Positions 12,909 to 14,442 of a DNA stretch of 14,442 nt are shown here, one piece after another (positions within the stretch are counted from its first letter, which is position 1; each line of letters begins with the position of its first letter). The notes beneath the pieces were generated by a model that did no database searches, was not told where the DNA came from, and worked only from the letters and a program-made list of their open reading frames with translations. The stretch is from an uncultured Arenimonas sp. GTDB lineage: Bacteria > Pseudomonadota > Gammaproteobacteria > Xanthomonadales > Xanthomonadaceae. Position numbers and translations under genes: made by a program. Where the stretch lies: the NCBI GenBank assembly GCA_946480565.1, contig CAMLKR010000048.1, forward strand, positions 1-14,442, given 5' to 3'.

Positions 12909-12937
12909 TTGCGGCCGCCGGCCCCGGCCGGCATACT
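12909..12937 (+). promoter_or_regulatory. Candidate promoter for the argF' leader transcript
   Basis: TTGCGG (12909-12914), a 17-base spacer and CATACT (12932-12937) match the sigma-70 elements at three and four of six positions. The predicted transcript start would fall at about 12943-12946, so the leader ORF at 12946 could be translated leaderless or nearly so. The region just ahead of argF' (13106-13133) is too short for a complete promoter, which favours an upstream one. Confidence 0.35.
12917..12932. repeat. Perfect inverted repeat in the promoter spacer
   Basis: GCCGGCC-CC-GGCCGGC has 7-base perfect arms and begins 10 bases after the glycine-zipper gene stop. No T-run follows, so it is not a canonical terminator. 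It fills the spacer between the candidate -35 and -10, where it could be an operator or simply a GC-rich hairpin. Confidence 0.5.
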
Positions 12938-12945
12938 GCCCGCCA

Positions 12946-13050
12946 ATGAACCTGACCCGCGCCAGCGCCGACGTCCTCACCTCCGCCTACATGGCGGCGG
13001 GCATGACCTCGCGCGCGCGCCGACCGGAACCCTCCACGCCAGCTGGGTAA
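12946..13050 (+). CDS. Putative 34-codon leader peptide of the arginine operon
   Basis: A short ORF starting MNLTRASADVL and ending with a TAA at 13048-13050. Arginine is encoded at codons 5, 23, 25 and 26, with the cluster CGC-GCG-CGC-CGA at 13012-13023. Its last two codons, GCT-GGG (13042-13047), are identical to the downstream arm of the terminator stem 13081-13099 and can pair with the upstream arm. No Shine-Dalgarno sequence is visible before 12946; a start at the internal ATG 13003 would give a 15-codon peptide with three arginines. The position between a candidate promoter and a terminator just ahead of argF' suggests a ribosome-stalling leader. It could also be a chance ORF; no protein homology is recognised. 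Confidence 0.45.
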   Translation: MNLTRASADVLTSAYMAAGMTSRARRPEPSTPAG

Positions 13051-13105
13051 ACCGGACGTCACTGCTTGTTCACCGGAAAAGCCCAGCCTCGCGCTGGGCT
13101 TTTTT
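13042..13105 (+). promoter_or_regulatory. Putative attenuator: antiterminator/terminator pair ahead of argF'
   Basis: GCTGGG (13042-13047) can pair with CCCAGC (13082-13087), six Watson-Crick pairs plus a possible G-U, which would disrupt the terminator stem. When the ribosome reaches the TAA at 13048 it would cover GCTGGG and allow the terminator; stalling at the arginine codons 13012-13023 would leave it free. This is the arrangement of classical amino-acid attenuators. The pairing is seen; the function is inferred. Confidence 0.45.
13077..13105 (+). terminator. Strong intrinsic terminator 29 bases before argF'
   Basis: AAAA-GCCCAGC (13081-13087), a five-base loop CTCGC, GCTGGGC (13093-13099) and TTTTTT (13100-13105) form an 11-base-pair stem counting the A-T pairs. 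It lies 170 bases after the preceding gene's stop and directly before the argF' ribosome-binding site, so it may be a regulated terminator for argF' instead of, or as well as, the end of the upstream gene. Confidence 0.88.
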
Positions 13106-13133
13106 GTTTTGGGATTTTTCAAAGGGCCGATCA

Positions 13134-14138
13134 ATGAAGCATTTCCTCAATACCCAGGACTGGACCCGGGCCGAACTGGACGCCGTGCTGGCCCAGGCCG
13201 CCGCGTTCAAGCGCAGCAAGGCCGGTGACCAGCTCAAGGGCAAGTCCATCGCCTTGGTCTTCTTCAACCCGTCGCTGCGCACCCGCACCAGCTTCGAGCT
13301 CGGCGCCTTCCAGCTGGGCGGCCATGCCGTGGTGCTGCAGCCCGGCAAGGACGCCTGGCCCATCGAGTTCGGCGTCGGCACGGTGATGGACGGCGAGGCC
13401 GAGGAGCACATCGCCGAGGTGGCCCGGGTGCTGTCGCGCTACGTGGACCTGGTGGCGGTGCGCGCCTTCCCGAAGTTCCAGGACTGGTCGGTGGACCGCG
13501 AGGACCGGGTGCTGCAGGCCTTCGCCAAGTACTCGACCGTGCCGGTGATCAACCTCGAGACCATCACCCACCCCTGCCAGGAGCTGGCGCATGCGCTGGC
13601 CCTGCAGGAGCACTTCAAGACCACCGACCTGCGCGGCAGGAAGTTCGTGCTGACCTGGACCTACCACCCCAAGCCGCTCAACACGGCGGTGGCCAACTCC
13701 GCGCTGACCATCGCCACCCGGCTGGGCATGGACGTGACCCTGCTGTGCCCGACGCCGGAGTACGCGCTGGACGAACGCTACCTGGGCTGGGCCCGCGACA
13801 ACGTCGCCGAGTCCGGCGGCAGCTTCCGCATCAGCCACGACATCACCGCGGCCTACACCGGCGCCGACGTCGTCTACGCCAAGAGCTGGGGCGCGATCCC
13901 GTATTTCGGCCGATGGGAGCAGGAGAAGCCCATCCGCGATGCGCACAGGCACTTCATCGTCGACGAAGCCAAGATGGCGCTCACGAACAACGGTGTCTTC
14001 AGCCACTGCCTTCCGCTTCGCCGCAACGTCAAGGCCACCGACGGCGTGATGGACGCGCCCTACTGCATCGCCATCGAGGAGGCCGAAAACCGCCTGCACG
14101 TGCAGAAGGCGGTGATGGCGGCGCTCGCGAATCAATAA
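13134..14138 (+). CDS. argF': N-acetylornithine carbamoyltransferase (ArgF')
   Basis: It transfers a carbamoyl group to N-acetyl-L-ornithine, giving N-acetylcitrulline, in the variant arginine pathway first found in Xanthomonas. The product is 334 residues and aligns, from memory, along its whole length with the X. campestris enzyme. Key features are the carbamoyl-phosphate loop NPSLRTRTSFE (45-55), W75-P76 in DAWPIEF, E90 (matching the Glu known to select acetyl- over succinyl-ornithine), HPCQE (146-150), TWTYHPKPLNTAVANS (174-189), HCLPLRRNVK (291-300) and K300, matching the lysine reported as carboxylated. The ATG at 13134 has AAAGGG seven bases ahead. The frame is open upstream to 12909, but the terminator and this ribosome-binding site exclude that. 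argG follows after 18 bases, so the two are co-transcribed. Confidence 0.96.
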   Translation: MKHFLNTQDWTRAELDAVLAQAAAFKRSKAGDQLKGKSIALVFFNPSLRTRTSFELGAFQLGGHAVVLQPGKDAWPIEFGVGTVMDGEAEEHIAEVARVLSRYVDLVAVRAFPKFQDWSVDREDRVLQAFAKYSTVPVINLETITHPCQELAHALALQEHFKTTDLRGRKFVLTWTYHPKPLNTAVANSALTIATRLGMDVTLLCPTPEYALDERYLGWARDNVAESGGSFRISHDITAAYTGADVVYAKSWGAIPYFGRWEQEKPIRDAHRHFIVDEAKMALTNNGVFSHCLPLRRNVKATDGVMDAPYCIAIEEAENRLHVQKAVMAALANQ

Positions 14139-14156: not shown

Positions 14157-14442
14157 ATGACCGACAAGAAAGACATCGTCCTCGCCTTCTCCGGCGGCCT
14201 CGACACCAGCTTCTGCATCCCGTGGCTGCAGGAGCGCGGCTTGGCCGTGCACACGGTGTTCGCCGACACCGGCGGCGTGGACGCCGACGAGCGGGCCTAC
14301 ATCGAGCAGCGCGCCGCCGAACTCGGCGCCGCCAGCCACGTCACCGTGGACGGCGGGCCGGCGATCTGGGACGGTTTCGTCAAGCCTTTCGTGATGGCGG
14401 GCGAGGGTTACCAGGGCCAGTACCCGCTGCTGGTGTCCGACC
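14157..14442 (+). CDS. argG: Argininosuccinate synthase (3'-truncated by window end)
   Basis: The first 95 codons of an ATP-dependent ligase that joins citrulline and aspartate into argininosuccinate. The PP-loop SGGLDTS is at residues 12-18, followed by [21 protein letters not shown] and [14 protein letters not shown], which match the xanthomonad ArgG type. AGGA lies ten bases before ATG 14157. It starts 18 bases after argF' and continues past the window; in xanthomonads further arginine genes usually follow. The deacetylation that converts N-acetylcitrulline to citrulline, needed before this step, must be encoded elsewhere. Confidence 0.95.

Follow-up and report, generated by a model that had tools for sequence, protein, structure and literature searches.

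A probable trp-type arginine attenuator ahead of argF'-argG in an uncultured Arenimonas and its relatives

The arginine biosynthetic genes argF' and argG of an uncultured Arenimonas species are preceded by a leader that contains a 34-codon reading frame with clustered arginine codons, followed by an intrinsic terminator. The leader lies near the end of a 14,442-nucleotide stretch (the window; contig CAMLKR010000048.1), in which all features described here are on the plus strand. Our reading, to which we give a probability of roughly 0.88, is that this leader would be a ribosome-mediated transcription attenuator of the trp type, responding to charged tRNA-Arg and controlling argF'-argG. An earlier note on this DNA proposed arginine attenuation here, and reading the sequence again reproduces its layout: promoter boxes, open reading frame (ORF), arginine cluster, terminator, argF', and argG all lie where it placed them. 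The arrangement is real and beyond chance; the case for it is carried by conservation, not by the single sequence.

Attenuators have been described for several amino acids. In the trp, his, leu, and thr attenuators, a leader ORF contains codons for the operon's product, and the RNA can form mutually exclusive 1:2, 2:3, and 3:4 pairings; the trp attenuator is the four-segment plan. The window has the same layout: an ORF and a four-segment leader (1:2 hairpin, 2:3 antiterminator, and 3:4 terminator) stand before argF'. The likeness includes a stop codon in or beside segment 2 and a terminator placed before a biosynthetic operon (for the trp and his cases, see the available parts of PMC1183508 and PMC4046918).

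Transcription would start within a few nucleotides of the leader AUG, and a ribosome would load on an almost leaderless RNA. With arginine plentiful, the ribosome would pass the CGN codons and reach the stop in or beside segment 2, blocking the 2:3 pairing, and the 3:4 structure would terminate RNA polymerase. With arginine short, a ribosome stalled at CGC-CGA would cover segment 1 (at CGA it would lie over that segment); the 2:3 structure would form, and polymerase would read into argF'.

The Leader ORF and Its Arginine Codons

The near set comprises 81 loci, many of them close kin: the window and the top-scoring 80 argF' relatives, out of 575, taken from named records. One member (L003) comes from a record titled as a Rhizobium metagenome-assembled genome, with an argF' 95% identical to that of the window; this probably is a binning error.

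The ORF of the window runs from 12946 to 13050 (ATG at 12946; TAA at 13048–13050) and encodes MNLTRASADVLTSAYMAAGMTSRARRPEPSTPAG. The same ORF is present in all 81 near loci and in all 60 further loci described below. (A strict motif search missed the ORF of locus L045; a looser motif search recovered it.) It starts with ATG in 80 near loci, at a distance from the conserved Met of 18 codons in 45, 19 in 27, 17 in five, 22 in two, and 16 in one; the exception, L037, starts with GTG 19 codons ahead of that Met.

The putative regulatory codons, CGC-GCG-CGC-CGA (13012–13023), encode the end of a core, M-T-S-R-A-R-R, whose three Arg positions are Arg in 81/81 near loci. The earlier note had held that loss of the ORF or its arginine codons in relatives would count against attenuation; both are kept in these loci. 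Conservation of the ORF and its Arg codons (81/81 and 60/60) is accompanied by synonymous variation in this putative leader peptide.

The last core Arg is encoded by CGA in 80/81 near loci, whereas the corresponding argF' stretches use it for 5 of their 1432 Arg codons. Among 136 distinct leaders, 135 contain MTSRARR, and 135 have CGA at the final RARR Arg. The small number of arginines, listed earlier as a weak point, is correct as a count, yet is offset by one of them being this rare codon. Arg-Arg codon pairs with CGA in the Salmonella his leader give high de-attenuation, and CGU and CGC are read faster than CGA (PMC4046918, available part). By analogy, a fixed CGA beside CGC or CGT plausibly provides a built-in slow point. 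CGA need not be essential, however, since arginine sensing by the consecutive Arg codons of Salmonella speF orf34 works with rare and frequent codons alike (PMC6386406, available part).

Alternative RNA Structures

Structures were evaluated in an alignment (A1) of 78 leaders, omitting three loci whose leader duplicates another. In the window, segment 1 (CCGGAACCC, 13024–13032) pairs with GGGTAAACCGG to form the 1:2 hairpin. The elements listed in the earlier note stand as stated, but this hairpin was absent from the list. Segment 2 (GCTGGGTAAACCGG, 13042–13055), defined from foldings of the window and the 78 leaders, includes the stop codon and the ORF sequence GCTGGG (13042–13047). Segment 3 (CCGGAAAAGCCCAGC, 13073–13087) is common to antiterminator and terminator. 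The intrinsic terminator 3:4 (13077–13105) has the stem GCCCAGC/GCTGGGC, a five-nucleotide loop, and then six T residues (CCCAGC at 13082–13087; GCTGGGC at 13093–13099; T6 at 13100–13105). Over the 78 leaders, 99.3% of terminator cells are paired, and the T-tract is present in the alignment.

The antiterminator was first described as a six-pair helix between GCTGGG and CCCAGC. That pairing holds, but not its length: when segment 1 is withheld and segment 4 has yet to appear, positions 13035–13091 fold with GCTGGGT...CCGG against CCGG...GCCCAGC, giving over ten pairs and −18.7 kcal/mol. An intrinsic terminator between ORF and argF', an antiterminator exclusive with it, and a 1:2 hairpin are all present.

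The whole region (12945–13110) folds at −72.3 kcal/mol (z = −4.05), and none of 200 shuffles is as stable. Folded as separate regions, 74 of the 78 leaders form at least five 1:2 pairs and 77 form at least five 2:3 pairs; mean energies are −12.4 (1:2), −19.4 (2:3), and −15.8 (3:4) kcal/mol, and mean z is −1.3 for 1:2 and −2.0 for 2:3. The 1:2 stem shows compensatory changes, and covariation in the terminated state, with 1:2 and 3:4 both formed, is above 500/500 shuffles on all measures. The 2:3 helix is paired in 97.1% of cells. Its core shows 41 double changes across the 136 distinct leaders, against a shuffle maximum of 28, and shifts along with the terminator: mostly GCTGGG/CCCAGC/GCTGGG, and GCCGGG/CCCGGC/GCCGGG in about 30.

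Transcription Start and the Small RNA Xoo5

The candidate promoter (12909–12937) consists of TTGCGG (12909–12914), a 17-nucleotide spacer, and CATACT (12932–12937). Its proposal is borne out by relatives: TTGC plus NANNNT (spaced 16–19 nucleotides, 3–14 nucleotides before ATG) occurs in 79/80 ATG leaders and in 81/8000 shuffles. The spacer is 17 nucleotides in 72 leaders and 18 in seven; L037 and L058 lack the pattern. The −10-like box lies 4–10 nucleotides (mode 9) ahead of ATG in 79/80 ATG leaders, so the transcript should start at about the ATG. In some relatives (L113, L115), GGAA precedes an ATG that seems to be more distant from the promoter. In two further loci (L116 and L126, as oriented), the leader ORF seems to start with GTG, and the promoter seemingly lies further upstream than in Xanthomonadaceae.

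A start near AUG is documented in a relative. Xoo5 of Xanthomonas oryzae was cloned, its 5' end was mapped by RACE (rapid amplification of cDNA ends), and its length by RACE and cloning is 124 nucleotides, equal to that of the Rfam model; the gene downstream, PXO_00353, is N-acetylornithine carbamoyltransferase (PMC3039613, available part). The Rfam consensus (RF02242) begins cuAUG, and its position 1 aligns two nucleotides before the leader AUG. Three Xanthomonas loci match RF02242 at 143–147 bits, and the score is at least 50 in six of nine loci other than the window (L059, L042, L053, L062, L079, and L001; below 50 in L046, L013, and L007). The whole model matches the window from 12944 at 31.1 bits (E 6e-5), under the gathering score of 50; the window leader is orthologous though diverged, given its same place before argF'. 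Judged by sequence, the orphan small RNA Xoo5 is this leader.

The missing Shine-Dalgarno site, an observation that stands, is accounted for by a nearly leaderless RNA, whose start lies about two nucleotides before AUG in the relative. The Xoo5 5' end also makes a main start downstream of 13105, named earlier as a possible refutation, unlikely.

No Rfam family matches the window at its gathering score, and a known riboswitch was rejected on that ground. Further weak matches are to rnk_pseudo (E 0.011) and SorX (E 2e-4).

Distribution and the Arginine Repressor

A covariance model (CM) built from the 78 A1 leaders was scanned over 299 genomes of the order. Any match (E ≤ 0.001) was found in 231 and a strong match (E ≤ 2e-11) in 165. 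The model was built on the peptide core, so further matches are biased towards that core. The 60 further loci are places fetched from strong matches (two, L134 and L144, repeat near leaders); all 60 have an MTSRARR ORF 128–420 nucleotides upstream of an argF' that is 71–87% identical to that of the window. Six strongly matching genomes examined for copies have one strong match apiece; secondary matches in ten genomes score 25.8–33.2 bits. The same arrangement recurs widely in the order, including Xanthomonas, Stenotrophomonas, and Lysobacter.

An argF' match is present in 284/299 genomes (a few weak, and probably other carbamoyltransferases), so argF' often occurs in genomes that lack a strong CM match. 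A deep set takes 18 genomes of this kind or with a weak CM match; a contig end truncates one locus, leaving 17 readable. Two of these have an MTSRARR leader, and 12 encode a different peptide with arginine clusters. In those 12 (argF' 64–68% identical), the peptides share only the clusters (RRRR, RRRDRRP, RRLRRP, or RRARRTRRP), which stand before a GCTGGG-type terminator. Ten of them have five or six Arg within nine residues, matched by 0–4 of 200 shuffles each; the other two have an unremarkable three (L193, matched by 49/200 shuffles; L198, by 9/200). CGA makes up 23/65 Arg codons in the deep leaders versus 15/223 in their argF' (p 5e-8). An arginine attenuator would be expected to give just such peptides, with little in common other than their arginine codons. 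One deep leader (L196) has its tail (CGCCGACCACTGTTGGCCGGGTAGCC) twice, with N nearby, perhaps an assembly error.

Across a class-wide sample of 274 genomes, strong matches were confined to G003, G008, and G022; the other 33 matching genomes score at most 36.4 bits, and the four best of these weaker matches are terminators without argF' nearby. This does not establish absence outside the order, because diverged true leaders (G146, G123) score only 38–39 bits. A peptide search in plasmid records gave one match, the leader before argF' of Xanthomonas sacchari, where the incomplete gene table lists no gene. The arginine genes of this locus (L082, NZ_CP010410.1 64000–80000) lie on a record of 508 kb that is labelled a plasmid but may be a piece of the chromosome.

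Arginine shortage probably is sensed through a stalling ribosome instead of the usual repressor, ArgR. ArgR (TIGR01529) was found in 0/10 genomes of the loci studied here and 0/165 genomes with a strong leader match; the search was positive in 9/14 control genomes. Eight of the 299 order genomes have matches, all below the family cut-off, and all eight are among the 134 without a strong leader match (8/134 versus 0/165, p 0.0014). These counts cover the relatives' genomes, the window's own whole genome lying outside them. The leader thus appears to replace the arginine repressor in the order; it also explains the orphan Xoo5, offers a natural case of one rare codon kept in a sensor, and makes control of arginine synthesis without ArgR directly testable.

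Relation to Known Systems

The mechanism is textbook; arginine as the amino acid and the wide use in the order are new, as far as the literature search shows. No attenuator for bacterial arginine biosynthesis was found described in the open PMC literature; the earlier note likewise knew of no arginine leader-peptide attenuator described in this group. The leader differs from the trp, his, leu, and thr attenuators in its amino acid, a near-fixed rare CGA, a near-leaderless RNA, and a peptide core conserved in most leaders read. The fungal arginine attenuator peptide likewise is an arginine-responsive upstream peptide of arginine biosynthesis; it is unrelated and works differently, through translational control by arginine-induced arrest.

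Three further bacterial leaders are comparable. Xoo5 is the orthologous RNA with argF' downstream, but was described as a small RNA, and its Rfam model ends short of the terminator; in the part available, the main text of its paper uses none of the words arginine, leader, and argF (PMC3039613). Sinorhizobium meliloti trpL (rnTrpL, peTrpL) likewise is a leaderless attenuator ORF and yields a small RNA on termination, but it concerns tryptophan, and activity in trans has been demonstrated for it (PMC7298713, available part). Salmonella speF orf34, likewise a 34-codon leader ORF, senses arginine through ribosome pausing at consecutive Arg codons; its target is an ornithine decarboxylase, control involves Rho, translation, and RNase G, and the available text reports no intrinsic terminator found (PMC6386406). 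As that family is described there (DUF2618; an HIRRT core, before ornithine decarboxylase), our leader does not belong to it, since it precedes argF' and has the core MTSRARR and an intrinsic terminator.

Weighing the Reading

Several results weigh against the arrangement itself or against trp-type attenuation. In the window, a generic sigma-70 scan found no promoter, a terminator scan found one terminator where shuffles average 1.1, and the antiterminator piece alone has a z of −1.92, with 7/200 shuffles as stable. Folding from CGA to the T-tract in one piece gives the terminator in 67/78 leaders and the 1:2 hairpin in 62/78. Covariation of 2:3 in the 78 leaders does not exceed shuffles, because the helix varies too little, and a C.A mismatch interrupts the core in 5/132 leaders. 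A tree-corrected 2:3 test yields five supported independent pairs (mean 3.1 the same way versus 0.0 the other), a difference without significance in the sign test. The conserved stem with covarying arms sought earlier therefore was found for 1:2 with 3:4, whereas covariation of 2:3 is no more than suggestive. A six-base 2:3 core, perfect or with wobble pairs, is seen in eight of the 12 deep leaders, and no perfect one in the other four (L188, L190, L195, L196); three of the 17 readable deep loci lack a leader.

The Xoo5 data also fit imperfectly. Northern bands of about 130 and 100 nucleotides were seen, the longer only in early growth, and seven of eight small RNA deletions in this organism had no obvious phenotype (PMC3039613, available part). 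The L059 leader measures 159 nucleotides to the end of T6, longer than the 124-nucleotide Xoo5 RNA; trimming, paused RNA, or rough gel sizes may explain the mismatch. The same paper lists PXO_00353 (argF') among changed proteins in the proteome comparison of its Xoo1 section (1.7 ± 0.19). Sequence, conservation, and alternative pairings come from the present computation, and the 5' end from published work on a relative; translation, stalling, direction of response, and read-through we infer.

The same RNA switch could be driven by a stall that depends on the nascent peptide, with G-M-T-S-R-A-R-R-P in the exit tunnel, and not only on tRNA-Arg charging. Each of these residues is kept in at least 75/81 near loci, with third-base variation in the codons for Gly, Thr, Ala, and the first two Arg; a plain attenuator would need the Arg codons only. 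Conservation of G-M-T-S exceeds the needs of codon sensing, and the peptide itself may have a role. However, the Ser codon is TCG in 79/81 loci, and CGA and CCG likewise are almost fixed at the third base; some of the constraint may therefore act on the RNA. Moreover, MTS is lost in the 12 deep leaders, which retain Arg clusters, the Pro after RR is replaced in 6/81 near loci, and arginine-induced arrest here would turn the operon on, the wrong direction for end-product control. We consider a peptide-dependent stall unlikely. Somewhat more credible, though still doubtful, is a broader proposal: a widespread arginine attenuator in the place of ArgR whose peptide has, in many members, gained a second job. 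The near-invariant G-M-T-S-R-A-R-R-P would then slow or arrest the ribosome in an arginine-tuned way on near-leaderless RNA, or would act in trans as an "ArgL" peptide or small RNA (Xoo5).

A main role in trans, as a small RNA, a small protein, or both, with the terminator as the RNA's own 3' end, seems improbable. We know of no target of the leader RNA. It lies shortly before argF' in the loci read, its Arg clusters persist while the rest of the peptide changes, and it has mutually exclusive pairings. Rfam does list it as a small RNA (RF02242) and Xoo5 was detected by Northern blot (PMC3039613), while rnTrpL and peTrpL of Sinorhizobium act in trans, so such roles can coexist with attenuation (PMC7298713; both papers available in part). 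The chance is very slim that the terminator is an ordinary one for the upstream glycine-zipper gene, with argF' served by its own downstream promoter. The terminator lies about 170 nucleotides beyond that gene's stop, and a second promoter could fit in Xanthomonas, where the gap before argF' is about 105 nucleotides. A plain terminator of the upstream gene was nevertheless rejected, since a conserved promoter and the ORF with its conserved Arg codons lie after that gene; RNA begins at that promoter in Xanthomonas, and 28 nucleotides separate T-tract and argF' in the window.

Gene Order

argF' (N-acetylornithine carbamoyltransferase, 13134–14138) matches the NCBIfam model NF003384 at 612.8 bits (cut-off 288), its ATG at 13134. 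argG (argininosuccinate synthase, 14157–14442) is a 5' part cut by the window edge; the fragment matches NF003385 at 166.5 bits on 95 residues, under the whole-protein cut-off. In X. sacchari the leader is followed by argF', argG, a GNAT gene, acetylornithine deacetylase (argE), acetylglutamate kinase (argB), a second GNAT gene, argC, and argH. The stretch translated as argF' in L005 contains a stop codon.

A GTTTCAACCGCAAGAAAC-like element lies between terminator and argF' in 34/81 near loci (L042, L053, and L059 among them), about 93 nucleotides before argF'. It has inverted GTTTC/GAAAC arms in several Xanthomonas loci; the window has none, and the element also occurs in Stenotrophomonas and Pseudoxanthomonas.
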